NCBI GenBank assembly: GCA_963281255.1
Contig: OY725498.1
Coordinates: 4,030,001 to 4,094,000, forward strand
Source of the DNA: Aphrocallistes beatrix
Taxonomy: Eukaryota; Porifera; Hexactinellida; Sceptrulophora; Aphrocallistidae
Length of the DNA: 64,000 nucleotides
Direction: 5' to 3'
This document shows positions 4,661-62,124 of this stretch, in pieces (position 1 is the first letter of the stretch; each line of letters starts with the position of its first letter). The notes under the pieces are model-generated. The model was given only the letters and a program-made list of their open reading frames with translations, did not search any database and was not told the origin of the DNA. Made by a program: the position numbers and the translations under genes.

Positions 4661-5908
4661 TTAGAATATCAAAAGATGATGATTGTGACCTACGAGGATG
4701 ATTCTCTCTTTTGCATCTAGTGTGACACCAAGAGGACTCTGTATGCTATCAGTGATTTCATGAACTAAATCTCCTTCTTGATTGAATAGAACAATAGCGG
4801 GTTGGTTAAAATCTGAAATAATAAAGTTACCGCACCCATCTATACAGAATGAATAGGGGGTTTTCAAATGTTTGGAAATAGAATTGAGAACAGTATTCTG
4901 TACCTGAGTCAGGTTATAGTTGAAAGAATAGAGGAAAGGGTTAATGGAGCTCAGCACATAAATGTACTCGTTGGTTAGTTTTATGTCAGAAGGAAACTTC
5001 AGTATTCCTTTTCCAAACTGAGACTTGAATAGGAAATCTTTGGAGAATATTTGGACTTGATTATTACCACAGTCACACACAAATATATCTCCATTCGATT
5101 CATTGATAGTAACGCCATGTGGGGATTTTAATTGTCCTTCTCCATTCCCTGGAGTTCCTACCTGTTTCAGAAATGTTCCAGTCAAATCATAAATTAACAA
5201 ACAGCCAGCTCCATTCTGAGTTACAAACACTTTATTTTGGTAGAAAGCTATGCAAAGAGGAGAATTCATCTTACCATCTCCATCTCTATCTCCAAACTTG
5301 TACAAATACTTTCCATCTTTGTCAAATACTTGCACTCTGTTGTTACTCTGATCTGCTACGAAAATATTACTAGTCTGGCAGTGCACTGATACTCCCCAAG
5401 GAAAATAGAATTGTCCTTCTTTATCACCTGATGTCCCTCCTATACTGAGTACAGGAGTCAATTTTCCTTCATAATCTACTACAGGTAGGCTAGATACTAC
5501 AGAAGTAGAGTTAGTAACAGTAAGTCTACCAATAGTACCAGCTAACTCCAATATTGTCTTGTCAAAGTCAAGACAGATGTGTTTAGATTCAGATTGAGAT
5601 TCAAATTCTTTTCGTTTCTCGGATAATTGTTCGATAATTGAACTTTGGATTTCTTTTAGATTTTCATACTTCACTTCATCTTTGGCACATTCTAACATTC
5701 GTTCAAGTCCTGTTATTGATTGTTTGGGTTTATCTCTTTCTCTTTTGTGAGAACTTAAGATCTCCTCCAATTCTTTCATTAGTTTTTCTTTTCTCTCTTT
5801 CAAACAATCCATCAATTGACAGAAAAAAGTTTCTATTTCCTTTTTCGTTTTAGAGATTTCATCTTCGAAATCGTCCTTATCGTAAGAGGCAATACCCGCT
5901 GTTGCCAT
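4661..5908 (-). CDS. Coiled-coil/NHL propeller protein, copy 2 (intact, type I)
   Basis: 415 aa, single exon. The N-terminus MATAGIASYDKDD is followed by a charged coiled coil to about residue 125, the near-invariant linker around LAGTIGRLTV, and six NHL blades from about residue 160. Family-variable positions read FPW in blade 1 (169-171), N232 in blade 2, PH near 264, and VGHNHHLLIF at the C-terminus. There is no RING, B-box or signal peptide at this start. The frame stays open upstream to 6025 and would add 39 residues with a hydrophobic stretch; I chose 5908 because all family members share this start. By analogy with TRIM-NHL propellers it may bind RNA or protein, but the ligand is unknown. 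Confidence 0.88.
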   Translation of the reverse strand: MATAGIASYDKDDFEDEISKTKKEIETFFCQLMDCLKERKEKLMKELEEILSSHKRERDKPKQSITGLERMLECAKDEVKYENLKEIQSSIIEQLSEKRKEFESQSESKHICLDFDKTILELAGTIGRLTVTNSTSVVSSLPVVDYEGKLTPVLSIGGTSGDKEGQFYFPWGVSVHCQTSNIFVADQSNNRVQVFDKDGKYLYKFGDRDGDGKMNSPLCIAFYQNKVFVTQNGAGCLLIYDLTGTFLKQVGTPGNGEGQLKSPHGVTINESNGDIFVCDCGNNQVQIFSKDFLFKSQFGKGILKFPSDIKLTNEYIYVLSSINPFLYSFNYNLTQVQNTVLNSISKHLKTPYSFCIDGCGNFIISDFNQPAIVLFNQEGDLVHEITDSIQSPLGVTLDAKERIILVGHNHHLLIF

Positions 5909-6164
5909 TAAATAATAAATAAATCTAATATAAATGTATAATACGAACAAACATAATAGAAACAGATGAAGCCGCTTTATTGGGACAGCAAAGTTAACGT
6001 TTTGGTCCGAATAAGCAGTTTTCACTGTGCAATATGAGAAACTGTAAGATCATTATAAAGTTATGAACTAATTGGATAAGTCAATGAATAAACTAAATCA
6101 GTAGAAATACAGTAGATATTGGATCTAGTGATATTATATAATAATAATTTTGTTCGGTTTGAGG
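5909..6164. other. 5' flank of copy 2
   Basis: This holds the AT-rich leader shared by type I copies and a short decayed stretch (5965-6015) recalling the cgcttaatnggg motif of Tigger-like MITEs. The segment taagtcaatgaataaacta near 6080 recurs at 22700 and 53810. No gene. Confidence 0.4.
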
Positions 6165-6535
6165 TGCCTCAGGCGATGACATCTCTAAATACGTCTGTCT
6201 TACTGTTATAATCGATATCACTCGAAAAATCACAAAATTTGTCAATTTTACAATTTTTGATGCACAATGATGACGTCATAACAGAATCATGAGTCATCAT
6301 TTTTGATTATTGTTGTAGCATATGTGAGATTTAATAATATATACATTCTATTAAATTTTAGCCCTTCATGATAGCCTCTAAAATGGCTGACAATGGCACC
6401 ATATTTCCATGATGAGTCGACGTTTTCGTCTGAGGTCAGAACTTAGTGGAGCCATAGTCAAAAGACTTACACATGCCAAAAATCAGCTTTCTGTATCTTG
6501 GCAGTTTATTCAATCAACTCGTTACAGAGATATAT
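6165..6535 (-). mobile_element. Helitron-like family A, truncated copy
   Basis: It matches the family A body in reverse orientation, from the gcctcaggcg segment through gatatcactcgaaaaatcac to caatcaactcgttacagagatata. A TGACGTCA palindrome lies at 6271-6278. The GC-rich 3' tail and the 5' TC end are both missing. Confidence 0.65.
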
Positions 6536-6880
6536 AATATTTCTCGATTTCTGTCTTCAAGCAGGCATTGCATGACATGTTCACGGACTGAACTCCTCTC
6601 TCTACCTGCCCGTCGCCCTCTGGGTGATATGGGGAGCTATGACGTTTTTCAATACCGAACCCATTCAACATTCCCTAACTAACTGTGTAAGTCCAGATAG
6701 GGCGGTAATCAGACACTTCGTCGCTCGGGCATTCGTCGACGGAACTTTCGTCCCTGGAATTTTCGTTCCCGAACCTTTGTCTCATTAGAGGCTAAAATAA
6801 ACAGGCACTAATTTGTAAGGAACGGAAAGTGAGGCTTTTTGAGTGGATTTTGTTTGAAGAAAATGGGTGAAAATGAGGAA
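6536..6880. other. No gene; short ttcgt repeats
   Basis: Unique-looking sequence. Around 6718-6782 it has an imperfect repetition of a ttcgtcnnnggaa-type motif. No coding pattern was recognised. Confidence 0.35.
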
Positions 6881-7510
6881 TTTTCATTGAGAAATCAGTA
6901 AGTTCGAAAGGGACAATCCTTAACCTACATAACTTCACCCTAAGCATCGTTCCAATCTATTTTCCACAAATCCAGAGGATACTCGCGCTCATTAGTTCGA
7001 GTTTGATAGTCTTTATCAAGCCTCTTCCGTCAACTCCCTCAATGTCATCAGCGACGTCTCTCACTTTACCGGAACCTTGCCTTGTATGTTCTTCGGGAGC
7101 TGGGAAGCGAGCATCGAGGCGATAAATTCCATTCCTACCCCCAGGGTGTTGGAACTTACGACGTATCTCGAAAAAGAAGTCATCAATTTGTACTCCAGGA
7201 TCCCAATCTGATCTACAGAGTTGCTGCATGATATGGTAGGGTCAATCGGAGGATACAGAGTCTCTTCTAGGATTTCCAAACCCCCAACAATTGACTCGGC
7301 GCTTCTTACTACATCCCTTACCAATTCCCTCTCCGCTGTCTACGGTTGACGCAGGCTGGTAGGAGTTGAATTGAGTTTTTCTGTCCTTGCTCGCCATTCA
7401 GGATTTGCTGTACGCTGGCTAGGAAAAGATGCTTCCAATCCCCATTCTCGTTCCTTTAGACAATGTTGGGATTGTAGGTCCAGTAGACATCGTGGTCCTT
7501 TGCTTGAGTG
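6881..7510 (-). pseudogene. Gag-like retroelement relic, partial copy 1
   Basis: Homologous to the longer copies at 21510-22640 and 52620-53805. On the minus strand it begins with the MSTGPTIPTL-type start region near 7490. It holds pieces resembling SFSRYVVxxNTxGVGMEF (about 7180-7130) and DVADDIEGVDGR (about 7060-7025), split between frames. The zinc-knuckle half present in the other copies is missing. It is clearly non-functional. Assignment as gag rests on the zinc knuckle of the longer copies. Confidence 0.5.
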
Positions 7511-7680
7511 TGAATTGTAGTATTTAAATACGTAATGTAAAATCGTTTAATATTATGACTATAAACTAGATTGGAAGAAATACTACAATTAAACTAAATA
7601 ACACGAGAGTAAATATATATACTATCCGGTTAGTTGAGTAAAGTTAAAGTTTAAAAGTATACCAATTGAACCTTAACATA
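7511..7680. other. Spacer shared with two other loci
   Basis: This stretch, containing aaataacacgagagtaaata, recurs near 22740 and 53850 beside the other gag-like relics. It marks a duplicated block of gag relic, MITE and NHL 3' end. Confidence 0.5.
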
Positions 7681-7844
7681 CAGTATAACTCGGTTAGTAC
7701 GTACTCGGGATAAGACGTACACCAGCTTAGTACGTACTCATTTCTCTGAATCAGAATTCCTGTAATATAGAGATTCCTAAATGTAATATCAACTCGGTTA
7801 GTTTTCCGCTTCCCAGAGGGGTACGTCTTATCCGAGTTCTATGG
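7681..7844. mobile_element. Tigger/pogo-like MITE, family 2
   Basis: It begins CAGTATAACTCGGTTAGTAC and ends TTATCCGAGTTCTATGG; the inverted ends match the cagtaNaactcgg type. The interior holds repeated tagtacgtactc and a ggtacgtcttatccgag arm. Related copies lie at 53966-54091 and, internally deleted, at 22860-22919; a fragment lies near 57778-57830. Confidence 0.7.
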
Positions 7845-7888
7845 TACTAACAGTCTATGACATTTATCATTTCACATGAATTGTCTAA

Positions 7889-8020
7889 TTATAAAAAAGG
7901 TGACAATGACGCCATAATTCCATGATAAGTCTACATTTTCGTCTGAGGTCAGAACTTACTAGAGCCATAGCCAAAGACTCCCACATGCCAAAAATCAGCT
8001 TTCTACGCCTAACAGTTTCT
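7889..8020 (-). mobile_element. Helitron-like family A, short fragment
   Basis: It matches the family A 5' body in reverse (ccatgataagtctacattttcgtctgaggtcag through gccaaaaatcagctttct). Both ends are missing. Confidence 0.6.
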
Positions 8021-8249
8021 TCCTTCCCTCTTACAAATAAAAGCTCAAAAACTAGAATTTCCAATTGTATGGAAATGTCTATCGATAATAATCAGTGCGA
8101 TTCTAGAGGTGTAAAAATAAAGAAAGGAATCAAAACAAACACAAATCATTGTCACTCTTCAAGTTAATCTGTCAAATTACCAAGGAGAAAACATAAAATA
8201 AAACAGAATAAGAAACAAATATTTATTAGAGTGAAATATCGCGAAATCA

Positions 8250-9475
8250 TCAGAATATCAAAAGACGATAATTGCGACCTACGAGAACAATTCTCCCTCT
8301 GGTATCTAGTGTGATACCAACTGGTTTCTGAATGTATCAGTGATTTTATGAACTAAGTCTCCTTCTTGATTGAATAGAAAAATAGAGTGTAGGGTATAAT
8401 CTGAAATAACAAAGTTGCCAGCACCATCTATACAGAATGAATAGGGTTGTTTTAAATGTTTGGAAATAGAATTGAGAACAGCATTCTGTACCTGAGTGAG
8501 GTTATAGTTGAAAGAATAGAGGAAAGGGTTAGTGCAGCTCAGTACATAAATGTACTCGTTGGTTAGTTTTATGTCAGAAGGAGACTTCAGTATTCCTTTT
8601 CCAAACTGAGACTTGAATAAGAAATCTTTGGAGAATATTTGGACTCGATTATTACTATAGTTACACACAAATATATCTCCATTCGATTCATTGATAGTAA
8701 TACCACGTGGGGAGTTGAATTGTCCTTCTCCATACCCTGGAGTTCCTATCTGTTTCAAAAATGTCTTATTTAAATCATAAACTAACAAACAACCAGCTCC
8801 ATTCTGAGATACAAACACTTTATTTTCATAAAAAGTAACGCAAAGGGGATAATTCATCTTACCAGCTCCATCTCTATCTCCAAACTTGAATAAATACTTT
8901 CTATCTTTGTTAAATACTTGCACTCTGTTGTTACTCTGATCTGCTACGAAAATATTACCAGTCTGGTAGTGCACTGCTACTCCCCAAGGATAAGAGAATT
9001 GTCCTTCCTTACTACCTGATGTTCCTCCTATACTGAGTACAGGAGTCACTTTTCCCTCATAATCTACTACAGGTAGGCTAGATACTACAGAATTAGAGTT
9101 AGTAACAGTAAGTCTACCAATAGTACCAGCTAACTCCAATATTGTCTTGTCAAAGTAAAGACTGATGTGTTTAGATTCGGACTGAGATTCAAATTCATTT
9201 CTTTTCTCTGATAATTGTTCGATAAATGAGCTTTGGATTTCTTTCATATCTTCAGACTTGATTTTATTTTTCGTAAATTGTAAGAGTGCTTCAAGTTCTG
9301 TTAGAGATTGTTTGTGAGACTATAGAATCGAATCCAATTCCTTCATTAGTTTTTCTTTTCTATCTCTCAAACAATCCATCAACTGACAAAAGTAAGTTTC
9401 TATTTTCTTTTTCGTTTTAGAGATTTCATCTTCGAAATCGTTCTTATTGCATGAGGCAATACTTGCTGTTGCCAT
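8250..9475 (-). pseudogene. Coiled-coil/NHL copy 3, broken (type I)
   Basis: The N-terminus starts at 9475 (MATASIASCNKND). It has an in-frame TAG at 9320-9322 within the coiled coil, next to an in-frame loss of about six codons compared with copy 14. The frame then stays open through blades 1-5. A one-base deletion near 8330 (gaatgtatc versus gtatgctatc) shifts the last blade, and the family stop would be at 8250-8252. It has a hydrophobic upstream extension like copy 2 (frame open to 9562). Its 3' end is the same subtype as the fragment at 54783. A TTTATT (AATAAA on the minus strand) lies at 8222-8227, a plausible poly(A) signal. Confidence 0.85.
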
Positions 9476-10506: not shown

Positions 10507-11753
10507 TTAGAATATCAAAAGACGATGGTTGTAACCTACGAGGATGATTCTCCCTCTTGCATCTAGTGTGACACCAAAAGGATAATGTATGCTATCAGTG
10601 ATTTTATGAACTAAATCTCCTTCTTGATTGAATAGAACAATAGCATTTTGGCACCGATCTGATATAATAAAGGTACCAACAACGTCTATACAGAATGACC
10701 AAGGTTGTTTCAAATGTTTGGAAATAGAATTGAGAACAGCATTCTGTATCTGAGTGTGGTAATAGTTGAAAGAATAGAGGAAAGGGTTAGTGGAGCTCAG
10801 TACATAAATGTACTCGTTGGTTAGTTTTATGTCAGAAGGAGACTTCAGTATTCCTTTTCCAAACTGAGACTTGAATAGGAAATCTTTGGAGAATATTTGG
10901 ACTCGATTATTACTATAGTCACACACAAATATATCTCCATTCGAGTTATTGATAGTTATGCCATATGGGTGACTCAAATGTCCTTCTCCATTCCCTGGAG
11001 TTCCTATCTGTTTCAGAAATTTTCCATTTAAATCATAAACTAACAAACAATCTGTTCCCAACTGAGATACAAACACTTTATTCAGGTGGAAAGCAATACA
11101 AAGAGGAGAATTCATCTTACCAGCTCCATCTCTATCTCCAACTTGTGCAAATACTTTCCATCTTTGTCAAATACTTGCACTCTGTTGTTACTCTGATCTG
11201 CTACGAAAATATTACCAGTCTGGTAGTGCACTGCTACTCCCCAAGGAGAAAAGAATTGTCCTTCCTTACCACCTGATGTCCCTCCTATACTGAGTACAGG
11301 AGTCACTTTTCCCTCATAATCTACTACAGGTAGGCTAGATACTACATAAGTAGAGTTAGTAACAGTAAGTCTACCAATAGTACCAGCTAACTCCAATATT
11401 GTCTTGTCAAAGTAAAGACTGATGTGTTTACATTCAAATTGAGATTTAAATTCTTTTCTTTTCTCTGATAATTGTTCGATAATTGAACTTTGAATATCTT
11501 TCAAAATTTCAGATTTCATGTTGTTTTTAGTACATTGCAACATTTGTTCAAGTTCTGTTAGAGATTGTTTGTGTTTATCTCTTTCTCTTTTGTGAGAATT
11601 TAATATTCCTTCCAATTCGTTTAATAGTTTTCTTTTTTTCTCTTTCAAACAATCAATCAATTGACAGAAATGAGTTTCTATTTCCTTTTGAACTTTGGAG
11701 ATTTGAACTTCGAAGTCATTTTTTTCGGACGAGACAACATCTGCTGTTGCCAT
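10507..11753 (-). pseudogene. Coiled-coil/NHL copy 4, one-base frameshift (type II)
   Basis: Full family length but 1,247 instead of 1,248 bases. Near 11141 the codons for YKFGDRDG are shifted because tccaaacttg has become tccaacttg. Upstream (residues 1 to about 203) and downstream parts are otherwise open and family-like. Variable positions: FSPW in blade 1, L232 with TDC in place of AGC, LSHPYG in blade 3, DRCQNA in blade 5. The DRCQNA variant is shared with copy 11. A single missing A in a short A run could be a sequencing error, so the gene may be intact in the animal. Confidence 0.85.
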
Positions 11754-16540: not shown

Positions 16541-17920
16541 CAGGGTGATTCAAAAAAAATGCAACCCAAAAGGTTTTTGAATCACTCTGTCTTTATTTCT
16601 CTACTAATCCGATTTATTCTTATATTTTCTTATTAGCATGAGTCTAGACAATAGAAAATGCCAAATTGGGTGTTGCAGCACCGAATTTTCTGTGTGGAAC
16701 ATTACTTTAGAACTTCCTCATACGAGTCTGTAAAAACACAATTCCGTACATCGTTCCAGACGGAAGTTGCTCCCGATAAATCGTTGATCTATCGTTGGGT
16801 GGAGAAGTTTAGGAAACATGGGACGGTTCAAAACCTCAATAGCAAGTCAGATGACCGACAAACGCATTCTGGTCGGCCAAAGAAGCGAACAACGGAAGTA
16901 ATTGAGATGGTTCGTAACTCTGTCGAATTCAGCCCAAAACGGTCAATCAGGCGGGGGGGGTCAATCATTGTCATTGGACAGAAAAATCTCTCCAAGCACA
17001 GTCAGAAGGGTCTTAATCAATGATCTTAAGAGGTTTCCATATAGAATTCAGACCAAACAGAAGTTAACAACTGCTAACAAGTCAAAAAGACTTCAAATAG
17101 CCAAGAAATTTTTGGAAAAAATTCAAAGTCAGGGCCGTTTTCTTTCACTGTTGTGGATGTTCGATGAAGCCCACTTTCACTTAAACGGAAAAGTCAACTC
17201 CAAGACAAACGTGTTCTGGGGAACCCAGAGACCAATAGAGGTTGCTGAGAAACCACTACATTCAGAAAAATGTACGGCATGGGCAGCCATTTCGGCTAAA
17301 GGAATCATCGGACCATTCTTCTTTGAGGAAAATCACAAGGCGGTTACCATTACGAAAGAACGGTATGTCCAGGTCCTTGATCTCTTCTTGCAGCAGCTCA
17401 AAATCCTCTATCCATCACTTCTGACTCACTTTTGGTTCCAACAAGATGGAGCAAGCTCACACACCTCGTATTTCTCGAGAGATTGGCTCAAAGAACACTT
17501 TGGCTCAAAAGTTATCAGTCTCAAGACCGATTTTGAGTGGCCCCCCTATAGCCCCAACTTAAGCCCCCCTGACTTCTACTTATGGGGCTTTCTAAAGGAC
17601 CGAGTATATACTACTAAGCCTAGAACCATCAGCGAGTTGAAAGAAAACATCAGGGAAGAAATTAGAAAGATTCCCAGCTCAGTATGCAAAGATGTCATGA
17701 ATAACTTTGTGGTACGGCTCAAGAAATGTACAGAGCTAAAAGGAGGACATTTGGAACATTTGCTATAATTTACAAAATAATGAATTTAGAACGCTGAATT
17801 TTTAATATGCGGTAAATATAATGCCATTCTCCGTATATTTCGAGTTTCGTTGAGTTTAGTTAAGAATTGTGGTCACAGCAGCCATTAACTTTTGGGTTGC
17901 ATTTTTTTTGAATCACCCGG
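16541..17920 (+). mobile_element. Complete mariner-like element, DD41D type
   Basis: 1,380 bp between TA dinucleotides (16539-16540 and 17921-17922). The inverted termini begin CAGGGTGATTCAAAAAAAAT and CCGGGTGATTCAAAAAAAAT and continue alike through gcaacccaaaag, about 32 bp with two differences. One transposase gene fills the interior. The near-identical termini and single coding defect point to recent mobility. Confidence 0.93.
16658..17768 (+). pseudogene. Mariner-like transposase, single frameshift in a G8 run
   Basis: An N-terminal helix-turn-helix region (residues 1 to about 110) leads into the DDE/D catalytic domain. Catalytic carboxylates are seen in FDEAHF, in QQDGASSH, and in the third motif PPYSPNLSPPDFYLWG. 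The third D follows the second D by 41 intervening residues, giving DD41D, the spacing reported for rosa-like Tc1/mariner elements. The frame breaks at 16953-16960, a run of eight G; the upstream frame ends at 17023 and the downstream frame runs to 17768. One G fewer would make one frame of about 369 codons, so the defect may be recent or an assembly error. Confidence 0.9.
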
Positions 17921-18536: not shown

Positions 18537-19784
18537 TTAGAACATCAAAAGACAATGAGTGTAACCTACGAGGATGATTCTCCCTCTTGCATCTAGTGTG
18601 ACACCAAAAGGATAATGTATGCTATCAGTGATTTTATGAACAAAATCTCCTTCTTGATTGAATAGAACAATAGCGTCTTGACTATAATCGGACATAATAA
18701 AGTTACCAGCACAATCTATACAGAATGAAAAGGGTTGTTTTAAATGTTTGGAAATAGTATTGAGAACAGCATCCTGTACCTGAGTCAGGTTATAGTTGAA
18801 AGAATAAAGGAAAGGGTTAGTGGAGCTCAGTACATAAATGTACTCGTTGGTTAGTTTTATGTCAGATGGAGACTTCAGTATTCCTTTTCCAAACTGAGAC
18901 TTGAATAGGAAATCCTTGGAGAATATTTGGACTCGATTATTACCATGGTCACACACAAATATATCTCCATTCGATTCATTGATAGAAATGCCATATGGGT
19001 GACTCAAATGTCCTTCTCCATTCCCCGGAGTTCCTATCTGTTTCAGAAATGTTCCATTTAAATCATAAACTAACAAACAACCAGCTCCGTACTGAGATAC
19101 AAACACTTTATTTTGGTAGAAAGCAAAGCAAAGAGGATAACTCATCTTACCAGCTTCATCTCTATCTCCAAACTTGTACAAATACTTTCCATCTTTGTCG
19201 AAAACTTGCACTCTGTTGTTTGTCTGATCTGCTACAAAAATATTACCAGTCTGGTAGTGCACTGATACTCCAAAAGGATTATAGAATTGTCCTTCTTTAT
19301 CACCTGATGTCCCTCCCATACTGAGTACAGGAGTCACTTTTCCCTCATAATCTACTACAGGTAGGCTAGATACTACAGAAGTAGAGTTAGTAACAGTAAG
19401 TCTACCAATAGTACCAGCTAACTCCAATATTGTCTTGTCAAAGTCAAGACTGATGTGTTTAGATTCGCACTGAGATTCAAATTCTTTTCGTTTTTCTGTT
19501 ATTTGTTTAATAATGGAGCTTTGGAAATCTGTCAGATTTTCAGATTTCATTTCATTTTTGGTACATTGTAACATTCGTTCAAGTTCTGTTAGAGATTGTT
19601 TGTGTTTATTTCTTCCTCTTTTCTGAGAATTTAACATTTCTTCCAATTCGTTCAACAGTTTTCTTTTTCTCTCTTTCAAACATTCAATCAATTGACAGAA
19701 ATGTGTCTCTATTTCTTTTTGAACTTTGGAGACTTGAATTTCGAAGTCATTTTCTTCAGATGAGACAATATCTGCTGTTGCCAT
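18537..19784 (-). CDS. Coiled-coil/NHL propeller protein, copy 5 (intact, type II)
   Basis: 415 aa, single exon, start MATADIVSSEEND. Coiled coil, linker and six blades are complete. Variable sites: YNPFG (168-172) in blade 1, Y232 in blade 2, SHPYG in blade 3, DHGNN at 279-283, DYSQDA in blade 5, and the C-terminus VGYTHCLLMF. Upstream, on the minus strand, a GTAAGC/TTCTAG pair just before the ATG could be a 5'-UTR mini-intron. The gene is flanked by the conserved 3' unit and the type II leader. Its function is inferred only from NHL propeller relatives. Confidence 0.9.
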   Translation of the reverse strand: MATADIVSSEENDFEIQVSKVQKEIETHFCQLIECLKERKRKLLNELEEMLNSQKRGRNKHKQSLTELERMLQCTKNEMKSENLTDFQSSIIKQITEKRKEFESQCESKHISLDFDKTILELAGTIGRLTVTNSTSVVSSLPVVDYEGKVTPVLSMGGTSGDKEGQFYNPFGVSVHYQTGNIFVADQTNNRVQVFDKDGKYLYKFGDRDEAGKMSYPLCFAFYQNKVFVSQYGAGCLLVYDLNGTFLKQIGTPGNGEGHLSHPYGISINESNGDIFVCDHGNNRVQIFSKDFLFKSQFGKGILKSPSDIKLTNEYIYVLSSTNPFLYSFNYNLTQVQDAVLNTISKHLKQPFSFCIDCAGNFIMSDYSQDAIVLFNQEGDFVHKITDSIHYPFGVTLDARGRIILVGYTHCLLMF

Positions 19785-21501: not shown

Positions 21502-22640
21502 AGCAATGAGAGCCCAGCACTCGAGCTCCCCGACGCTGTACTTCTCTAGCGCACCTGTGTAAGTCCAGATATGATTATCCCAGTGCCTCAACCTACACAA
21601 CTTCACCTCTGTAAAAGCACCGCTCCAACTGCTACACACGAATCGTCGGTCTGGAGGCAAACTCTAAATGGGACCAGCGTCTGAGTCAGGATTGCTGTTA
21701 TTGATTTCCCGTTTAGTTTACGGACAGGACAACAGATAGTTCCGTACTCATATCCCGGCGTTAGAGGTTCAAGATCTTCCTACCGCCTTTCGAACCGCTT
21801 CTTTTCAGACATTCCTTTAAGTTGTGTTCCTTTCCCTGCACCCTGGACATCTCTTTTCTGGGAAATATTTCCAGACGTGCGACCCCCCACAAAGGTAACA
21901 CCCCGACCGGGGGATGCCGGCCATTTAGGCTGTCGATCTCATCAGGAACTCCGAGGGTTATCCTTGAGTAAGCTACCACGTTATCCGTGCGTGGAGCTAG
22001 ATCCACGACGTCGTTAGTAGGATTGTGTGTTTGGGGGTTCAGTTGTTTCGGACAACACTGCAACTTTCTCAATCTTTTCAAAATCTTTGTTCCTCACATC
22101 CAGAGGATGCCCGCGCTCAGTTAGTTCGAGTTTGATAGTCTTTATCAAGTCTCTTCCATCAACTCCCTCAATGTCATCAGCGACGTCTCTCACTTTACCG
22201 CGAACCTTGCCTTGTATGTCCTTCGGGAGCTGGGAAGTAAGTATCGAGGCGACAAATTTCATTCCTACACCCCGGGTGTTGGGCCTTACGACGTATCTCG
22301 AAAAAGAAGTCATCTATTTGTACCCCAGGATCCCAATCTGATCTACAGAGCTGCTGCATGATATGGTAGGGTCAATCGGAGGATCCAGAGTCTCTTCTAG
22401 GATTTCCAAAGCCCAACAATTGTCTCGGCGCTTCTTGCTACATCTCTTACCAATTCCCTCTCCGTTGTCTACGGTTGACGCAGGATGGTAGGAGTTGAAT
22501 TGATTTTTTTCTGTCTTTGCTCGCCATTCAGGATTTGCTGTACGCTGGCTAGAAAAGATGCTTCTAATCCCCATTCTCGTTCCTTTAGACAATGTTGGGA
22601 TTGTAGGTCCAGTAGACATCGTGGTCCTTTGTTGAGTGTG
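21502..22640 (-). pseudogene. Gag-like retroelement relic, copy 2
   Basis: Read on the minus strand from an ATG at 22619 (MSTGPTIPTL...). Successive frames give a DPPIDPTISC region, a TSFSRYVV...GVGMKFVAS region, GKVRDVADDIEGVDGR, and then a cysteine-rich stretch at about 21900-21800. Across frames the last reads CYLCGGSHVW...RCPGC...EHNLKEC, which fits CCHC zinc knuckles as in Gag or ORF1 proteins. Several frameshifts make it non-functional. I see no reverse transcriptase or long terminal repeats. It abuts NHL fragment 6. Confidence 0.5.
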
Positions 22641-26293: not shown

Positions 26294-27541
26294 TTAGAAA
26301 ATTAAAATACAATCATTGTGACCTACGAGAACAATTCTCCCTCTTGCATCTAGTGTGACACCAAGAGGATTCTGTATGCTATCAGTGATTTGATGAACAA
26401 AATCTCCTTCTTGATTGAATAGAAAAATAGAGTGTTGGACATAATCTGAAATAGTAAAGTTTCCAGCATCATCGATACAGAACGAATGGGGCTGTTTCAA
26501 ATGTTTGGAAATAGAATTGAGAACAGCATTCTGTACTTGAGTGAGGTTATAGTTGAAAGAATAGAAGAAAGGGTTAGTGTGGCTCAGTACATAAATGTAC
26601 TCGTTGGTTAGTTTTATGTCAGAAGGAGGCTTCAGTATTTCTTTTCCAAACTGAGACTTTAATAGGAAATCTTTGGAGAATATTTGGACTCGATTATTAC
26701 CATAGTCACACACAAATATTTCTCCATTCGATGCATTGATAGTAATGCCATATGGGTTATTCAATTGCCCTTCGCCATTCCCTGGAGTTCCTATCTGTTT
26801 CAGAAATGTTCCATTTAAATCATAAACTAACAAACAACTACCACCATTCTGAGATACAAACACTTTATTTTGGTAGAAAGCAATACAAAGAGGATTATTC
26901 ATCTTGCCAGCTCCATCTCTATCTCCAAACTTGTACAAATATTTTCCATCTTTGTCAAATACTTGAACTCTGTGGTTACTCTGATCTGCTACGAAAATAT
27001 TACCAGTCTGATAGTGCACTGCTACTCCCCAAGGTTCAGAGAACTGTCCTTCCTTACCACCTGATGTCCCTCCTATACTGAGTACAGGAGTCACTTTTCC
27101 CTCATAATCTACTACAGGTAGGCTAGATACTACAAAAGTAGAGTTAGTAACAGTAAGTCTACCAATAGTACCAGCTAACTCCAATATTGTCTTGTCAAAG
27201 TCAATACTGATGTGTTTACATTCGAACTGAGATTCAAATTCTTTCCGTTTCTCTGATAATTGTTCGATAAATGAGCTTTGAAAATCTTGTAAAATTTCAG
27301 ATTTCATCTTGTCTTTAGTACATTGCAACATTTGTTCAAGTTCTGTTATTGATTGTTTGTGTTTGTCTCTTTCTCTTTTGTGAGAACTTAATATTTCTTC
27401 CAATTCGTTCAATAGTTTCCTTTTTCTTTCTTTCAAACAATCAATCAATTGACAGAAATGAGTTTCTATTTCCTTATGAACTTTAGAGATTTGAACTTCG
27501 AAGTCATCTTCTTCTGACGAGACAACATCTGCTGTTGCCAT
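26294..27541 (-). CDS. Coiled-coil/NHL propeller protein, copy 8 (intact, type II)
   Basis: 415 aa, single exon, start MATADVVSSEEDD. Complete coiled coil and propeller. Variable sites: SEPWG in blade 1, QSNHR in the blade 1 loop, N232 followed by GGS instead of GAG, NNPYG in blade 3, KPPSD and SHTNPF in blade 4, QPHSF and DYVQHS in blade 5, VGHNDCILIF at the end. The coiled coil is nearly identical to those of copies 9 and 11 (ILQDFQSSFIEQL), while the blades differ. Directly upstream a 45-nt GTAAGC...TTTTAG segment (27592 to 27548) could be a 5'-UTR intron. Confidence 0.92.
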   Translation of the reverse strand: MATADVVSSEEDDFEVQISKVHKEIETHFCQLIDCLKERKRKLLNELEEILSSHKRERDKHKQSITELEQMLQCTKDKMKSEILQDFQSSFIEQLSEKRKEFESQFECKHISIDFDKTILELAGTIGRLTVTNSTFVVSSLPVVDYEGKVTPVLSIGGTSGGKEGQFSEPWGVAVHYQTGNIFVADQSNHRVQVFDKDGKYLYKFGDRDGAGKMNNPLCIAFYQNKVFVSQNGGSCLLVYDLNGTFLKQIGTPGNGEGQLNNPYGITINASNGEIFVCDYGNNRVQIFSKDFLLKSQFGKEILKPPSDIKLTNEYIYVLSHTNPFFYSFNYNLTQVQNAVLNSISKHLKQPHSFCIDDAGNFTISDYVQHSIFLFNQEGDFVHQITDSIQNPLGVTLDARGRIVLVGHNDCILIF

Positions 27542-30701: not shown

Positions 30702-31862
30702 CTACCTAGAGGTGCAAGATTGCTGCTGGAACCAATCCAGCAAACGTGTATAGTTCTGGAGCAAAGCTCGAATCGCCGGCATCCTAAAGACCCATCGCGT
30801 TGGAGACAACTTCTTCAACTTTTCAGTCTCCGCAGAATCCTCCAGTCCGTTCTCGAATTCAGAAAACGATGCAAGACGTCTCGGGCTGCTCTTAACATAG
30901 ACAGTCACAGACTACACAATGTCAAGAATCTCTGCATTGCCGCACTCTGTCTCACTGCCTCTTTCAAGACGAGGCTAAGGCAGTGACCCTTACACTACCA
31001 AAACCGTGCAAAAGGATCCTTGTTTCCCAGGCGGGTTCGGACTACGTTATTCTTTTCGGTCATGGAAGCTGTGCCACCAAATGCCATCCCGCGCATTCCC
31101 TGAAAGTCAAGGCCTATTGCAGTTAGAGAATCCTCAGCCAGCTTCGCCAGTGTGTCAGCTGTCTCTACAAATCCGAAGAATTGTTCTGAGATTTCAAAGG
31201 TATCCGGATGGACGATACGCACAGCGAAAACCACCTTCTCCTTCACTGTGATATCCTGAGATTCATTCATTGACAGAGACCAAAACCTGCACTTGCGAAC
31301 ATTTTCGACAATACTTCGAAGCACCAAGTGTGAAAGAGTCTGCAAAACATCATTCTGAGTGTCCCAGTTAGTCCAGTTGTATTTTCTAGGATTGGTGGTT
31401 GACGGTTTGCAGATCCACTCTGCTAGAACCGGGTCAAACCTTCCACAAAGTTTGAGAAGTTCGTTTGCATTGCCTGAGTCCTGTAGATTTCCACGAAACA
31501 GAAGTCCTTGTCTGGCCAAAGTTTGTAACACTCAAATATTGCAGTCATGGCGGTTCTTCCCTTGATTTTGATTTCGGACGTCTTGAATGCTTCGCTGAGC
31601 ATCCTCGCAGCATCACTCCCTTGTCGCGAGGTTGTAATTGTAATCAGTGCCTTGGCTTGTGCCATGCTTCGCTCAAGCTTATGGAGACTTCCAGTAGAGA
31701 GCTTTTCAATATACTTCACAGCTCCAGACGCGCTTTCTTCCAGTTGGAGAAACCAGTTACGTTGAATTTGAGAGAAACATGATCAGTAGAGGACCAACGC
31801 CTGCTTTCTGTCATCCACGAGCACATGCTACAAAAACACTTCTGTCCCTTGCCACAAGCCAT
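30702..31862 (-). pseudogene. Decayed hAT transposase (TTF zinc finger + DUF4371 type), copy 1
   Basis: Minus-strand pieces follow the order of ZMYM1-like/DUF4371 proteins. A Cys-rich start (CFCSMCSWM) and TTF-type finger region lie near 31862-31650. SLSMNESQDITVKEKVVF, the first catalytic region, has N where a D is expected (D in copy 3). AFGGTASMTEKNN has G where copies 2 and 3 keep D. A HCLSLVLKEA-type region follows, then PTRWVFRMPAIRALLQNY near 30790. Frameshifts separate the parts, and the C-terminal dimerisation region is absent. It sits about 3-4 kb upstream of an NHL gene in each repeat unit, so it was duplicated with the array. Confidence 0.8.
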
Positions 31863-33228: not shown

Positions 33229-34476
33229 TTAGAATATTAGAAGACGATGATTGTGACTTACGAGGATGATTCTCCCTTTTGGATCTAGTGTGACACCAAA
33301 AGGCTTCTGTATGCTATCAGTGATCTTATGAACTAAATTCCCTTCTTGATTGAATAGAACAATAGCGTTTTGGCTATAATCTGATATAATAAAGTTACCA
33401 ACACCATCTATACAGAATGAAAAGTGTTTTTTCAAATGTTTGGAAATAGAATTGAGAACAGCATTCTCTACCTGAGTGAGGTTATAGTTGAAAGAACAGA
33501 GGAAAGGGTTGGTGTGGCTCAGTACATAAATGTACTCGTTGGTTAGTTTTATGTCAGAAGGAGACTTCAGTATTCCCATTCCAAACTGAGACTTGAATAG
33601 GAAATCTTTGGAGAATATTTGGACTCGATTATTACCATGGTCACACACAAATATATCTCCATTCGATTCATTGATAGTAATGCCATGTGGGGATTTAAAC
33701 TGTCCTTCTTCATTCCCTGGAGTTCCTATCTGGTTCAGAAATGTTCCATTTAAATCATAAACTAACAAAGAACCAGCTCCAACCTGAGATACAAACACTT
33801 TATTTTTGTAGAAAGCTATGAAAAGAGGAGTATTCATCTTACCAGCTCCATCTCTATCTCCAAACTTGTACAAATACTTTCCATCTTTGTCGAATACTTG
33901 AACTCTGTGGTTACTCTGATCTGCTACGAAAATATTACCAGTCTGGTAGTGCATTCCTACTCCAGAAGGATGATAGAATTGTCCTTCCTTACCACCTGAT
34001 GTTCCTCCTATACTGAGTACAGGAGTCACTTTTCGCTCATAATCTACTACAGGCAGGCTAGATACTACAGAAGTAGAGTTAGTAACAGTAAGTCTACCAA
34101 TAGTACCAGCTAACTCCAATATTGTCTTGTCAAAGTCAAGACTGATGTGTTTACATTCGAACTGAGATTCAAATTCTTTCCGTTTCTCTGATAATTGTTC
34201 GATAAATGAGCTTTGAAAATCTTGTAAAATTTCAGATTTCATCTTGTCTTTAGTACATTGCAACATTTGTTCAAGTTCTGTTAGAGGTTGTTTGTGTTTG
34301 TCTCTTTCTCTTTTGTGAGAATTTAATATTTCTTCCAATTCGTTCAATAGTTTCCTTTTTCTTTCTTTCAAACAATCAATCAATTGACAGAAATGAGTTT
34401 CTATTTCCTTTTGGACTTTGGAGATTTGAACTTCGAAGTCATCTTCTTCTGACGAGACAACATCTGCTGTTGCCAT
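33229..34476 (-). CDS. Coiled-coil/NHL propeller protein, copy 9 (intact, type II)
   Basis: 415 aa, single exon, start MATADVVSSEEDD. Variable sites: YHPSG with GMH (blade 1; both W/F171 and the following AV are replaced), QSNHR loop, V232 with AGS, KSPHG in blade 3, DHGNN, GMGILKSPS and SHTNPF in blade 4, KHFSF and DYSQNA in blade 5, VSHNHRLLIF at the end. The linker has one change (DYERKVTP instead of DYEGKVTP). Upstream flank, leader and putative mini-intron are shared with copies 8 and 11. Confidence 0.92.
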   Translation of the reverse strand: MATADVVSSEEDDFEVQISKVQKEIETHFCQLIDCLKERKRKLLNELEEILNSHKRERDKHKQPLTELEQMLQCTKDKMKSEILQDFQSSFIEQLSEKRKEFESQFECKHISLDFDKTILELAGTIGRLTVTNSTSVVSSLPVVDYERKVTPVLSIGGTSGGKEGQFYHPSGVGMHYQTGNIFVADQSNHRVQVFDKDGKYLYKFGDRDGAGKMNTPLFIAFYKNKVFVSQVGAGSLLVYDLNGTFLNQIGTPGNEEGQFKSPHGITINESNGDIFVCDHGNNRVQIFSKDFLFKSQFGMGILKSPSDIKLTNEYIYVLSHTNPFLCSFNYNLTQVENAVLNSISKHLKKHFSFCIDGVGNFIISDYSQNAIVLFNQEGNLVHKITDSIQKPFGVTLDPKGRIILVSHNHRLLIF

Positions 34477-36587: not shown

Positions 36588-37749
36588 CTACCTAGAGGTG
36601 CAAGATTGCTGCTGGAACCAATCCAGCAAACGTGTATAGTTCTGGAGCAAAGCTCGAATCGCCGGCATCCTAAAGACCCATCGCGTTGGAGACAACTTCT
36701 TCAACTTTTCAGTCTCCGCAGAATCCTCCAGTCCGTTCTCGAATTCAGAAAACGATGCAAGACGTCTCGGGCTGCTCTTAACATAGACAGTCACGGACTA
36801 CACAATGTCAAGAATCTCTGCATTGCCGCACTCTGTCTCACTGCCTCTTTCAAGACGAGGCTAAGGCAGTGACCCTTACACTACCAAAACCGTGCAAAAG
36901 GATCCTTGTTTCCCAGGCGGGTTCGGACTACGTTATTCTTTTCGGTCATGGAAGCTGCGCCATCAAATGCCATCCCGCGCATTCCCTGAAAGTCAAGGCC
37001 TATTGCAGTTAGAGAATCCTCAGCCAGCTTCGCCAGTGTGTCAGCTGTCTCTGCAAATCCGAAGAATTGTTCTGAGATTTCAAAGGTATCCGGATGGACG
37101 ATACGCACAGCGAAAACCACCTTCTCCTTCACTGTGATATCCTGAGATTCATTCATTGACAGAGACCAAAACCTGCACTTGCGAACATTTTCGACAATAC
37201 TTCGAAGCACCAAGTGTGAAAGAGTCTGCAAAACATCATTCTGAGTGTCCCAGTTAGTCCAGATGTATTTTCTAGGATTGGTGGTTGACGGTTTGCAGAT
37301 CCACTCTGCTAGAACCGGGTCAAACCTTCCACAAAGTTTGAGAAGTTCGTTTGCATTGCCTGAGTCCTATAGATGTCCACGAAACAGAAGTCCTTGTCTG
37401 GACAAAGTTTGTAACACTCAAATATTGCAGTCATGGCGGTTCTTCCCTTGATTTTGATTTCGGACGTCTTGAATGCTTCGCTGAGCATCGTCGCAGCATC
37501 ATTTCCTTGTCGCGAGGTTGTAAATGCAATCAGCGCCTTGGTTTGTGCCTCGCTTCGCTCATGCTTCTGGAAACTTCCAGCAGAGAGCTTTCCAATAGAC
37601 TTCACAGCTCTAGACAGCGCTTTCTTCCAGTTGGAGAAACCAGTTACGGTGAATTGGAGAGAAACATGATCAGTAGAGGACCAACGCCTGCTTTCTGTCA
37701 TCCACGAGCACATGCTACAAAAACACTTCCGTCCCTTGCCACAAGCCAC
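36588..37749 (-). pseudogene. Decayed hAT transposase, copy 2
   Basis: Paralogue of the relic at 30702-31862. The N-terminal 146 codons are open from MACGKGRKCFCSMCSW at 37749, through SRRWSSTDHVSLQFTVTG (TTF-type finger) and KHERSEAQTKALI, to 37309. The DUF4371 part then runs from 37231 to 36881 with MNESQ (N at the first catalytic position) and AFDGAASM (D kept). A final piece with PTRWVFRMPAIRALL ends at 36588. Frameshifts lie near 37250 and 36880. No terminal dimerisation domain or element ends were found. Confidence 0.8.
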
Positions 37750-44653: not shown

Positions 44654-45433
44654 TCTTATATATTAAAATGCTAGGATTTTTTTTTTGTGTGTTTGTCCGA
44701 ATTGATTGAAGAATTGGGAAGTCGTAGAGGTGTGAAAATTTGCATGTAGGTGTCAAATGATATGCCTACGATTAAGTTCTAAGATCTAAGCGAAATTTTC
44801 GCATCTCTGCAAAAAAAATGGAAAACAATTTTTCGCACCTTTTCTATACAAAATAAATGACTACACTATTACAATAGAAATCATTGTACAAGTACGACAC
44901 TACAATAAATAGATCGTCATTGTTATTAATACTTCAAAGCCACAACTTATGTTTGATATCTTAAATGTATTATAGTGTATGGCTATAAAAAAGATTATCT
45001 GCATATTTTCACACCTTTATATACATATTTTAACACCATTTGATGAATTTTGAAAATAATGCTAGAGACTAGCTTCCAACGGGTGACATGGGGTTTTCAG
45101 GGGTGTAGATTTCGAATATCATATTTTCAGATCGAAATGATAAATTATTTGTTTACCTTTGTTTACAATAGATACATAAAGTAAACAAATTACAAAAATA
45201 GGCTAGAGACTAGCTTCCAACGGTTGACATAGGTTTTTTAGTGCTGTAGATTTCGAATATTGTATCTTCGGATCGATATGATAAATAAATCGTATACTTT
45301 TGTTTACAATATTCATATAAGGTAAAAAATTCCCAAAATAGGTAAGATTGAGCAACTTCAGGCGCCCGCAGGGAGACTCTACGGACACGCAGTGTCCGCA
45401 AGCCGCGCAGCGCAAGCAAGCGAAGCGCGCTTG
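44654..45433 (+). mobile_element. Helitron-like family B, full-length
   Basis: 780 bp from A|TCTTATATATTAAAATGC to GAAGCGCGCTTG|T. Compared with the empty paralogous site (acaaatatgctagtaagtaa, 32780-32800), the element sits after AAATA with no target duplication. It has the same GC-rich 3' hairpin as the other copies. No ORF. Confidence 0.82.
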
Positions 45434-52335: not shown

Positions 52336-52357
52336 CTCACAACACAATGGCACTAAC

Positions 52358-52619: not shown

Positions 52620-53805
52620 GGAGCTGCTGTTGTGAAGTGGTCAGTCCAGGATTGCTGTTTTCGAATTCCCGTTTAGTTTACGGACAGAACAACAGAGAGT
52701 TCCGTACTCATATCCCGGCGTTGGAGGTTCAAGATCTTCCTACCGCCTTTCGAACTGCTTCTTTCCAGACATTCCTTTGAGGTGCTCCCTTTCCCCGCAC
52801 CCTGGACACCTCTTTTCTGGGAAATATTTTCAGACGTGCGACCCCCCACGAATGTAACACCCCCGAGCGGGAGATGCCGGCCGTTTAGGCTGTGGATCCC
52901 ATCTGGAACTCAGAGGGTTATCCTTGAGTAAGCTACCACATTATCCGTGTGTGGAGCTAAATCCACGACGTCGTTAGTAGGATTGTGTGAGTTTGAGGAT
53001 TCAGTTGTTTCGGACAACATTGCGACTTTCTTGATCTTTTCAAAATCTTTGCTCCCAAATCCAGAGGATACTCGCGCTCAGTTAGTTCGAGTTTGATAGT
53101 CTTTATCAAGCTTCTTCCGTCAACTCCCTCAATGTCATCAGCGACGTCTCTCACTTCACCGCGAACCTTGCCTTGTATGCAGGGTTTCATCCAGCTTTCC
53201 AAATTCATACGCCTAAATGGACGCCACGATTTTTCAACGCGCCTAGACTCATTTTTATATATGTTTTATGCCGCGCGCCTAGGTAGGAGTATGCCGCGCG
53301 CCTAGCCTAAAAAAAATAATACGCCTAATTATGATCCATGGGATGAAATACGCGCCTCTAGGCGCGCCCAGTACGCCTAGATGAAAGCCTGCTTGAATGT
53401 CCTTCGGGAGCTGGGAAGCGAGTATCGAGGCGACAAATTCCATTCCTACCCCCCGGGTGTTGGGCCTTACGACGTATCTCGAAAAAGAAGTCATCTATTT
53501 ATACCCCAGGTTCCCAATCTGATCTACAGAGTAGCTGCAGGATATGGTAGGGTCAATCGGAGGATCCAGAGTCTCTTCTAGGATTTCCAAAGCCCCACCA
53601 ATTGTCTCGGCACTTCTTACTACATCCCTTACCAATTCCCTCTCCGCTGTCTACGGTTGACGCAGGCTGGTAGGAGTTGAATTGAGTTTTTCTGTCCTTA
53701 CTCGCCATCCAGGATTTGCTGTACGCTGGCTAGGAAAAGATGCTTCTAATCCCCATTCTCATTCCTTTAGACAATGTTGGGATTGTAGGTCCAGTAGACA
53801 TCGTC
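52620..53805 (-). pseudogene. Gag-like retroelement relic, copy 3
   Basis: Homologous to 21510-22640. From the MSTGPTIPTL-type region near 53800 through DPPIDPTIS, SFSRYVVRPNTRGVGMEF (about 53490) and DVADDIEGVDGR (about 53155-53120) to a cysteine-rich part at about 52870-52780, where a frame reads RCPGCGEREHLK, again fitting a zinc knuckle. The element is split by the hAT MITE at 53180-53391. Frameshifts are numerous. No polymerase part was seen. Confidence 0.55.
53180..53391. mobile_element. hAT-type MITE (CAGGGTTTCATCCAG family), copy 3
   Basis: 212 bp inside the gag relic. The duplicates CTTGTATG (53172-53179) and CTTGAATG (53392-53399) differ at one base. The gag copies at 7078-7095 and 22206-22225 show the uninterrupted site. 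This is an insertion independent of the copies at 30460 and 36346. Confidence 0.92.
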
Positions 53806-59579: not shown

Positions 59580-61472
59580 TTAATACTAAAATAAATCTAA
59601 ATAGAAAGCGAAAAAAATTTGAGCTTATACTAGTATTTACAAAACGAAGATCTACAATTATTGAATGGGAATTTAACTGAGATTAGGGCAACACACGAAT
59701 CAAGATGACCAAAAGTTAACACCAATGTGATGTAAAACCCCAAACGAATTCTGACTGCATTATTCTTAAAGCTATGCTACAAGAGTATAATATTCAAAAA
59801 TATGGAATGGAAATGTATCCTTGTACATAGCTATAGATATTTACAATATTTGAATTATTCGGAAAATTGGTTTCATTACTTCAGCTCTCTAAGTTCTTTG
59901 CGCCTCATACCACAATAGTACTAAGAGTTATAAATTTCAATCTCTGTAGGAGGCACAAACAAATTGAAATTGATCTCTCTCAGTACTATTTCGATTGATT
60001 GAGATTCTGTCTTGTTGAGTGGTTCGGACTATGAAGGGAAGAGGAGCTGTTGTTAAGTGGTCAGACTCAAGACTCTTTTGGTATTCAAACAACTAAAGTG
60101 GTCATATCATGACCTGACTGCCTCCACTATTCCTGACTATGGTCGAGGTTGCTTGGATGGCATCAGTGCGACTAGGATCAGAGAGCTGGGTCGATGCGTC
60201 TATATTTTTGTATTATAAGCTTATCAAAGGTAGATGATCACAACTCACTGAGCTAGAGTGGACGTTGAAATGGCTCTAGTTGTGTTTATGCCTTCTAGTA
60301 TTTAGTTAAGTCCAGAAAATGGTCGGGTATCCCCGGTAGAGGCTTTGCATAGTTTTGTTACAGAACAAGGCAGATTTACTTGCGTGTCAAAAACGATTAC
60401 TTTGTCTTATTCTAGTATAGACCAATTTTCGGTTTATTCCAGTCCGGAAAACACAAATTTCAGTCCTAATTTATCAGTCTTATTCACTAAAATTTTCTAC
60501 AAATAAAAAAAGAAGGCTGTAAGTAAATTGAGGCCAAAACCGAATTGTCAAATTGACATAAGGCCGAAAAGAGAAATTAAACAAGAAAGGAAATTTTCAT
60601 TTTCAGCGATTTGATCTCAACTGACCAGTGACGAGAGGTATTTGTCTGGATCAGAAAACCTTATTTCGGGAAAAGGGAGGTAGAAGTGTTGGATATATAA
60701 CGTCCAACATCGATTCAGTGTATTTAAATTCTTCCCGTCTCTAAAATAAACAAATTCGAACCAATAAACCTACCTAAGTAAATCTAGAATACCCACGCAC
60801 ATCTTATATGTATTAAATTGGTAACTTCAACCAAATAACTAACACCTATCTACGAGGTAAAAAGGATCATATCAGAATAAGAGTGGATTAGAAAATCCGT
60901 GGTTTACTATTTCAACTTATAATATCAGTCTTGTAATTACTCCGCTTTTCCAGTCAATTTGATAATTCAGCTTTACTCCTCTACAATACCATACACTAGC
61001 ACAAAACAAATAATGATGCAAATTCTTCGATTCCTCAGCACTACTGGTCACCTATTTATACAGAGATAATTCACACCACACCGGAGGATACTCCCCCATT
61101 TTTGGGTTTAGAGGATAGCTACATGGACCTTAGATTGGGAACAATTGGACCATGTAGTAGACACTCCAATTTGTTCAACAAATCATCAATAAATATAATG
61201 ACGTTTTATATGTTAGCAAGGACCTCTAAATATATGTATTAGATAGAACAATTCTCAACAACTTTGGCACCCACCCCAGCTATACCATTGCTTCAAACGT
61301 TCTTACTTAATATTTAAATTTATGGACGATACCATGCTATCCTGTGGATGACCGGAGAAGAGAAGATTGGAAAAGTAGCATTGACACTCTTAAACTAACA
61401 AATTACTAAACAGAGAAAAAAATATAAAATAAGAAACAAAAATTAGTATTTGAGTTAAAAACGACGAAATGG
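59580..61472. other. 5' flank of copy 15 and 3' flank of copy 16, no gene
   Basis: 60090-60440 is the repeat block also seen at 54945-55260 and 25945-26130. 60520-61080 is a diverged NHL 3' unit (tttgtctggatcagaaa, caccacaccggagg). The final 120 bases are the flank found before copies 2, 4 and 12. No coding sequence recognised elsewhere. Confidence 0.5.
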
Positions 61473-62124
61473 TTAGAATATCAAAAGACGATGATTGTGA
61501 CCTACGAGGATAATTCTCCCTCTTGCATCTAGTGTAACACCAAGAGGACTCTGTATGCTATCAGTGATTTTATGAACTAAATCTCCTTCTTGATTGAATA
61601 GAACAATAGCGTGTTGGCCATAATCTGATATAATAAAGCTACCAGCACCATATATACAGAATGAATAGGATTGTTTCAAATGTTTCAAAATAGAATTGGG
61701 AACAGCATTATGTACCTGAGTGAGGTTATAGTTGAATGAATAGAGGAAAGGGTTAGTGTGGCTCAGTATATAAATGTACTCGTTGGTTAGTTTTATGTCC
61801 GAAGGAGACTTCAGTATTCCTTTTTCAAACTGAGACTTGTATAGGAAATCTTTAGATAATATTTGGACTCGATTATTACCATAGTCACAGACAAATATAT
61901 CTCCATTCGATTCATTGATGGTAATGCTATATGGGAAACTCAATTGTCCTTCTCCATTCCCTGGAGTTCCTATCTGTTTCAGAAATGTTCCATTTAAATC
62001 ATAAACTAACAAACAGCCAGCTCCGAACTGAGATACAAACACTTTATTTTGGTAGAAAGCAATATAGCGAGGAGTATTCATCATACCAGCTCCATCTCGA
62101 TCTCCAAACTTGTACAAATACTTT
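61473..62124 (-). pseudogene. NHL copy 16, 5'-truncated (blades 2-6)
   Basis: From the family stop at 61473 the frame is open through blades 6 to 2 and up to KYLYKFGDRDGAGMMNTP. Homology ends at about 62124 within the KDGKYLYKF segment. The coiled coil, linker and blade 1 are missing. Variable sites: NTPRY and F232 in blade 2, SFPYS in blade 3, DYGNN, SHTNPF, QSYSF, DYGQHA, VGHNHRLLIF. An internal ATG at 62115-62117 would allow a 214-aa propeller fragment, but the five remaining blades are unlikely to close. This is the right-hand end of the array. Confidence 0.85.

Follow-up and report, generated by a model that had tools for sequence, protein, structure and literature searches.

A sponge array of TRIM-like NHL genes with diversified loop codons and a probable exchanged NHL cassette

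Immunoglobulins and leucine-rich repeats are known to carry diversified repertoires for recognition. Such repertoires are also described on B30.2 domains (PMC2657112) and on fungal WD40 propellers (PMC1805685). Here, we analyze a gene array in the hexactinellid sponge Aphrocallistes beatrix, part of which lies in a 64,000-nucleotide stretch of assembly GCA_963281255.1 (contig OY725498.1, here C12; C12:4030001-4094000, hereafter the window), whose genes encode predicted proteins with a coiled coil and an NHL domain. At roughly two chances in three, we read this array as a repertoire of TRIM-like recognition proteins that positive selection and gene conversion have diversified. It would be a multigene family joining a coiled coil to a six-bladed NHL propeller, in which two loops per blade diversify under selection and the scaffold is held by purifying selection. 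Gene conversion would move the NHL cassette from gene to gene, each retaining its flanks and coiled coil, and new binding faces would thereby be redistributed and recombined. The family would then act as a germline repertoire against many changing ligands, RNA or protein, most likely non-self or selfish molecules. The pattern of variation may point to many ligand specificities, as the earlier note on this DNA had also proposed by comparison with recognition or immune families, and the role would be one in immunity or allorecognition.

Three described systems come closest. The TRIM-NHL proteins (TRIM71/LIN-41, TRIM2/3, Brat, and Thin) have the same NHL domain, and one of them, Brat, is not known to have a RING. 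They differ from the array copies, which show no RING or B-box in our scans and stand in dozens of tandem copies. Brat is classed as TRIM-like (PMC3503706), and the RNA-contact residues of LIN41 are mostly identical across LIN41 orthologues (PMC5908797), whereas the array's contact face diversifies. The NWD genes of Podospora anserina (het-d/het-e) offer a striking parallel in mode of evolution, not homology. Within each WD40 repeat, the interaction face has positively selected codons in pairs, 7 and 9 on either side of a conserved codon 8 and 25 and 27 on either side of a conserved codon 26, and the propellers show concerted evolution among genes and serve non-self recognition (PMC1805685). 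The array resembles this system in its paired selected loop sites (169 and 171 flank P170; 188 and 190 flank N189) and in exchange among genes. However, NWD proteins are fungal, NACHT-bearing WD40 proteins, whereas the array copies are NHL proteins. The units exchanged in NWD genes, within one gene or from one to another, are repeats, in contrast to the whole NHL part that moves in the array. Finally, the finTRIMs of teleost fish likewise form a large, clustered family of TRIM genes whose C-terminal domain is under positive selection; unlike the array copies, they carry RING and B-box domains and, in the long variants, B30.2, and NHL is absent from the published summary of the family (PMC2657112). 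Among the matches listed in the open-access literature we found no comparable diversified NHL family; most subscription papers lay outside that scope.

Variable codons and the upper face of the propeller

Genes of the array are about 415 codons long, and residues are numbered throughout by the intact reference copy at 26294..27541. Pfam scans found NHL repeats (PF01436) in all 27 scanned members and a weak TRIM coiled coil (PF25600, E<=0.01) in 9 of them. No RING or B-box appeared in the scans of the reference copy, the window proteins, and the 27 members, and no WD40, NACHT, or B30.2 in the Pfam tables of the window proteins and these members. Across the genome searched (100.5 Mb, 28 contigs), there were 24 B-box matches, none on C12, and 64 matches to the RING model PF13445. 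Of the latter, one falls within the array but in an open reading frame (ORF) of its own. This ORF (L028:1592-2761, minus strand; C12:4223592-4224761) encodes 389 residues with a cysteine-rich C terminus and is a possible E3 partner of the RING-less NHL proteins. The best solved-structure match of the family profile was TRIM71/LIN41 (E 1.9e-54), with the NHL domains of Thin, TRIM2/3, and Brat also matched, and the full-length alignment with LIN41 predicts a six-bladed propeller. The proteins thus appear to be RING-less TRIM-like NHL proteins, TRIM-NHL-like by descent. Visual inspection, made with no prediction tool, revealed no hydrophobic leader, and from this apparent lack the proteins are presumed to be intracellular. 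The coiled coil would oligomerize them or recruit a RING-bearing partner.

For comparison, we used the full-length ORFs among the sequences fetched. These comprised 51 copies, of which 48 were distinct (four identical copies were collapsed): clade A, the window's clade, with 36 copies from the window, the neighboring array, and contig C1, and clade B, with 12 copies from C3, C9, C10, and C1. Broken, partial, and more distant copies, and part of the 104 matching places in the genome, were left out. All 48 distinct copies have an ATG at residue 1, although their selection required alignment from residue 1.

The earlier note had listed 35 NHL codons as variable: 168/169/171, 216/218/219, 261/262/264, 304/305, 349-352, and 390/391/393, followed by 187-190, 232, 280-281, 320-321, 367-370, and 407-410. 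This list was borne out, as it includes 27 of the 35 columns with the highest entropy. Eight listed codons fall outside those 35 (189, 320, 349, 369, 390, 407, 409, and 410), and eight unlisted columns fall among them (162, 174, 233, 283, 339, 342, 373, and 414). Mean amino-acid entropy in the 36 clade A copies was 1.64 bits at the listed sites versus 0.50 for random sets of NHL columns, and none of 20,000 random sets reached 1.64 bits (maximum, 0.88). Lags 1 to 3 aside, the autocorrelation of variability peaked at 16, 87/88, 47, and 45 residues, which fits two loops per blade and the proposed one-blade period. The further claim that DNA beside the variable codons is almost unchanged is right within the NHL domain, since nucleotide diversity at codon positions 1, 2, and 3 was 0.33, 0.33, and 0.26 at the 35 sites and 0.06, 0.05, and 0.11 at the other 230 NHL codons. 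Variation extends to the N-terminal part, where at codons 1 to 90 it sorts by gene subclade. From the clade A table we picked 25 core sites, all of them listed and within the 27, with 305 and 351 omitted. Core columns made up 19 of the 25 NHL columns that varied most in clade B, and column entropies correlated between the clades (rho, 0.47).

To place these columns on the propeller, we relied on homology to solved structures. The LIN41 paper names 14 RNA-contacting residues in the zebrafish protein (PMC5908797); their letters were matched against the solved LIN41 chain, which was then aligned to the family. Twelve of the 14 contacts fall on the 25 core columns among 260 aligned columns (p = 2.8e-12), and likewise 12 on the listed 35 sites (p = 4e-10), a likeness to TRIM-NHL proteins beyond the shared domain; the remaining two align to 233 and 307. 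With loop limits set from the blade pattern, mean entropy was 1.19 in upper-face loops (55 residues), 0.29 in opposite-face loops (68 residues), and 0.34 in the rest (132 residues). RNA binding by Brat- and LIN41-type NHL domains takes place on the upper face (PMC9070667, PMC9634614). These comparisons agree with the suggestion that the variable turns share the RNA-binding face, and they support a placement in which the variable codons would sit in the pair of loops that each blade contributes to the upper face of the NHL propeller.

Residue use at the core sites of clade A is skewed, with serine at 17.9%, tyrosine at 17.1%, asparagine at 13.6%, and histidine at 9.7%. Acidic residues (aspartate plus glutamate) make up 2.1% of the core sites versus 8.7% of the rest of the NHL domain, with aspartate at 1.0%. 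This composition would favor an anionic ligand, for instance RNA, but it is also like that of antibody paratopes. The net charge of the 25 sites ranges from -1 to +5 per copy, with a median of +2. TRIM2/3 bear mixed charged patches on the upper face (PMC9634614), and acidic residues there are thus not structurally barred.

These features also bear on an unlikely alternative, in which the genes encode RNA-binding regulators like Brat and LIN-41, with faces split among many endogenous or transposon RNAs and no immune or allorecognition role. The near coincidence of the variable columns with LIN41 RNA contacts (12 of 14), the rarity of acidic residues, a charge of 0 to +4 in 33 of 36 copies, and a residue set suited to base stacking and edge contacts, as known from work on PUF proteins and Brat, all favor such regulators. 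However, the face is not strongly basic, with its median of +2, whereas most of the 14 LIN41 contacts named are arginine or lysine, and continuing diversification with cassette exchange would be unusual for fixed endogenous targets.

Probable exchange of the NHL cassette

Among NHL sites, linkage is down to 0.04 at distances above 10 bases (baseline, 0.03); for the N-terminal part it remains at about 0.2 as far as 250 bases. In Mantel tests, the two halves of the N-terminal part were correlated at r = 0.75 and the two halves of the NHL part at r = 0.11 (p = 0.24). NHL scaffold distance was 0.072 within and 0.074 between N-terminal subclades. Long identity tracts inside the NHL part exceeded those in shuffled order (NHL-only run-length test, global p = 0.02); the whole-gene version of this test is confounded by uneven conservation, its longest tracts covering conserved codons 96 to 169. 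Strictly silent sites, of which there were 11 in the NHL and 6 in the N-terminal part, were too few for a clear linkage decay. Among 29 copies in four subclades, differentiation was 0.60 to 0.83 over codons 1 to 90, 0.33 over codons 91 to 105, and -0.26 to 0.24 beyond. There is thus a changeover in ancestry near codon 106.

We compared the flanks of 25 copies, although these are so diverged (mean, 0.44 to 0.46) that their alignment is partly uncertain. Distances correlated at 0.72 between the upstream flank and the N terminus, at 0.47 between the N terminus and the downstream flank, and at 0.31 between the two flanks. Correlations of the NHL part with the upstream flank, N terminus, or downstream flank were -0.08 to 0.16. 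Since the flanks and the coiled-coil part share ancestry and the NHL part follows none of these regions closely, the NHL part has been replaced between flanks that retain a history of their own, as gene conversion does. The pair of copies closest over codons 1 to 105 (0.6% different, with 300 bases upstream identical) differs by 4.2% in the NHL scaffold, at 37% of bases in core codons, and by 18.5% over 300 bases downstream. As this difference continues downstream, a crossover explains that pair equally well. Overall, the NHL part from about codon 106 behaves as a cassette exchanged among genes.

A more far-reaching version of this process is conceivable but quite doubtful. In it, NHL cassettes, perhaps from broken copies too, would be converted into expressed coiled-coil genes, possibly also somatically, to give an anticipatory RNA- or antigen-binding repertoire, an NHL counterpart of antibody and variable lymphocyte receptor (VLR) diversification.

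Selection at the loop codons

We estimated the ratio of nonsynonymous to synonymous change (dN/dS, or omega) with a tree-free pairwise codon-model fit, for which ranges in brackets are site bootstraps. In clade A, omega was 2.0 (1.5-3.0) at the 25 core codons, 0.4 at the other NHL codons, and 0.3 at codons 1 to 150. A ratio above 1, which the earlier note had looked for at its variable codons, therefore held for the 25 core sites; over the full 35 it was not clear (1.5, 1.0-2.5). The core value depended on kappa (1.5 at kappa 1 and 3.0 at kappa 4) and was 2.3 for the strict top 25 columns. Counts by the Nei-Gojobori method (NG86) gave 1.22 for the first loop set and 1.27 for the 23 most variable sites of clade A; for the nine window copies they gave 1.48 at the 35 sites versus 0.36 in the rest of the domain.

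Because the 25 sites had been picked for their variability, we also used columns set only by LIN41 contacts and ran null simulations. Omega at the LIN41-defined columns was 6.0 (1.6-12) in clade B. In simulations on one recombination-free tree, 1 of 100 runs reached 2.0 when omega was at most 1 and the top 25 of 265 sites were picked, and none of 60 runs did so with 14 neutral hotspot sites. With the whole-gene tree, a grid test with site-specific rates put 13 sites above a posterior of 0.9 for beta > alpha; 12 of these are listed and one is N-terminal. On a tree built without those sites, all 13 sites above this threshold were listed, and on the NHL-scaffold tree, 8 of 12 were. A likelihood-ratio version retained 10, 10, and 13 sites on the three trees, with the unlisted 162, 174, and 211 always among them. 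Linkage in the NHL part has dropped almost to baseline past 10 bases and no one tree can fit, so the tree-based tests counted for less. Taken together, these data support purifying selection on the scaffold and diversifying selection on about 25 loop codons.

A number of results pull against the reading of a repertoire shaped by positive selection and gene conversion. In clade A, the 35 sites had an NG86 dN/dS of 0.95 (0.33 for the remaining NHL domain) and the second loop set alone one of 0.72, and in clade B it was 0.68 at the 35 sites (0.37 in the rest); here, the synonymous count is probably inflated by codons with multiple hits and the signal diluted by the weaker listed sites. Tree-free omega in clade B was 1.0 at the 35 sites and 2.0 at the core sites with an interval reaching below 1 (0.8-6.0), and at the LIN41-defined columns of clade A (2.0, 1.0-3.0) the interval touches 1. 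The tree-based site tests are weakened by recombination, and sites that pass them include the unlisted NHL residues 162, 174, 211, and 234 and N-terminal residues 12, 16, 54, 70, and 74. Synonymous diversity is raised at core codons (0.18 versus 0.10). The N-terminal part, which is less converted, has a similar level (0.16), and selection acting against conversion could account for the rise. We ascribe it to linked variants that selection maintains in the face of conversion; locally raised mutation or targeted hypermutation at core codons could add to it. As for exchange, a small residual association links the N-terminal part to the NHL scaffold (r = 0.09, p = 0.03), and the N-terminal part is also correlated with the core sites (r = 0.12, p = 0.006) and the last NHL half with the downstream flank (r = 0.16, p = 0.03). 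As for architecture, the coiled coil of the reference copy scores 19.8 bits, below the Pfam cut-off of 30. In many of 19 upstream sequences, TTTAG or ATTAG stands 10 to 25 bases 5' of the ATG; this could be a splice acceptor, making an upstream coding exon conceivable.

Neutral sites, that is, tolerant loops or mutation hotspots in a sequence otherwise homogenized by conversion, are a very unlikely account. Neutrality would fit both the roughly twofold pure synonymous diversity at core codons and the NG86 values near or below 1 over the 35 sites in both clades. However, omega was 2.0 at the core and 2.3 at the strict top 25, and in the recombination-free nulls on one tree 2.0 was reached in 0 of 60 runs with neutral hotspots and in 1 of 100 runs that allowed for the picking of variable sites. 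Residue use is also far from random: aspartate is at 1.0% versus 17.1% for tyrosine, 13.6% for asparagine, and 9.7% for histidine, whose codons are one base away. An artifact of decaying pseudogenes or assembly errors, to which the broken copies and the four identical genes spaced 3,380 bp apart might point, is hardly credible given that only full-length ORFs were used with identical ones collapsed, that omega in the rest of the domain is 0.4, and that the variable columns match structurally defined ones.

The array, its surroundings, and its significance

Thirteen copies of the NHL gene lie in the window, nine of them intact and four broken, and a further copy is cut where the window begins; all are on the minus strand. 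Their positions in the window are as follows; the broken and truncated copies were left out of the counts.

1..88, minus: 5' end of the intact copy C12:4028844-4030088, cut by the window start
4661..5908, minus: intact coiled-coil and NHL gene, 415 codons from the conserved ATG (the listed ORF extends to 6025)
8306..9475, minus: broken copy with an internal stop, matching query residues 1-393
10507..11753, minus: broken copy in two frames
18537..19784, minus: intact coiled-coil and NHL gene, 415 amino acids
23805..25049, minus: intact coiled-coil and NHL gene, 414 amino acids
26294..27541, minus: intact coiled-coil and NHL gene, 415 amino acids, the reference copy
26297..27226, minus: codons 106-415 of the reference copy, its exchange cassette, spanning the linker and the predicted six-bladed NHL domain, with ancestry unlike that of the flanks or codons 1-90
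33229..34476, minus: intact coiled-coil and NHL gene, 415 amino acids
39129..40376, minus: intact coiled-coil and NHL gene, 415 amino acids
45784..47031, minus: intact coiled-coil and NHL gene, 415 amino acids
50543..51790, minus: intact coiled-coil and NHL gene, 415 amino acids
55659..56903, minus: intact coiled-coil and NHL gene, 414 amino acids
58408..59579, minus: broken copy in two frames
61473..62129, minus: truncated copy, NHL part only, query residues 198-415

One query copy matched at least 104 stretches of the genome, some of them pieces of one gene; 61 are on C12, nearly all at 3.72-4.27 Mb, and the rest mainly on C1, C3, and C9. Further clusters of the family lie at C3:2.10-2.25 Mb, C9:0.79-0.85 Mb, and C1:9.04-9.10 Mb. 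NHL repeats are common genome-wide, with 150 scored from 3,391 first-look candidates. Four identical NHL genes at C12:4251325-4266170 (L030-L032) are spaced by exactly 3,380 bp; the first three units are without difference and the fourth is identical over 2,305 bases, reflecting either very recent amplification or an assembly effect. Adjoining the window, within the same array, is a distant NHL-type relative (L017:39-1346, minus strand; C12:4094039-4095346), a 436-codon frame with 24% identity to the reference copy.

The window also holds other elements. A transposase ORF at 16902-17768 (plus strand) has a DDE_3 match and a weak Tc3-type helix-turn-helix match in Pfam. Two near-identical ORF pieces at 30995-31531 and 36881-37231 (minus strand) lie between NHL genes in stretches of raised G+C content; the first matches DUF4371, and we take it to be hAT-like. 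The presence of RING, B-box, and NHL genes together with such Tc3-type and DUF4371 transposase pieces fits an animal source. Related ORF pieces (KVRDVADDIEGVDGR...) at 22014-22313 and 52957-53208 (minus strand) represent another repeated element between the genes. In addition, a 12-bp tandem repeat (13.6 copies) occupies 1612-1774, and a 141-bp unit is present in about 2 copies at 45053-45342.

If the reading of a TRIM-like recognition repertoire is right, an NHL propeller diversified at LIN41-type RNA-contact residues, with exchange of its cassette among tandem genes, would add a scaffold to those on which repertoires are built. The array would also offer a natural library for learning which residues of the face set NHL specificity.

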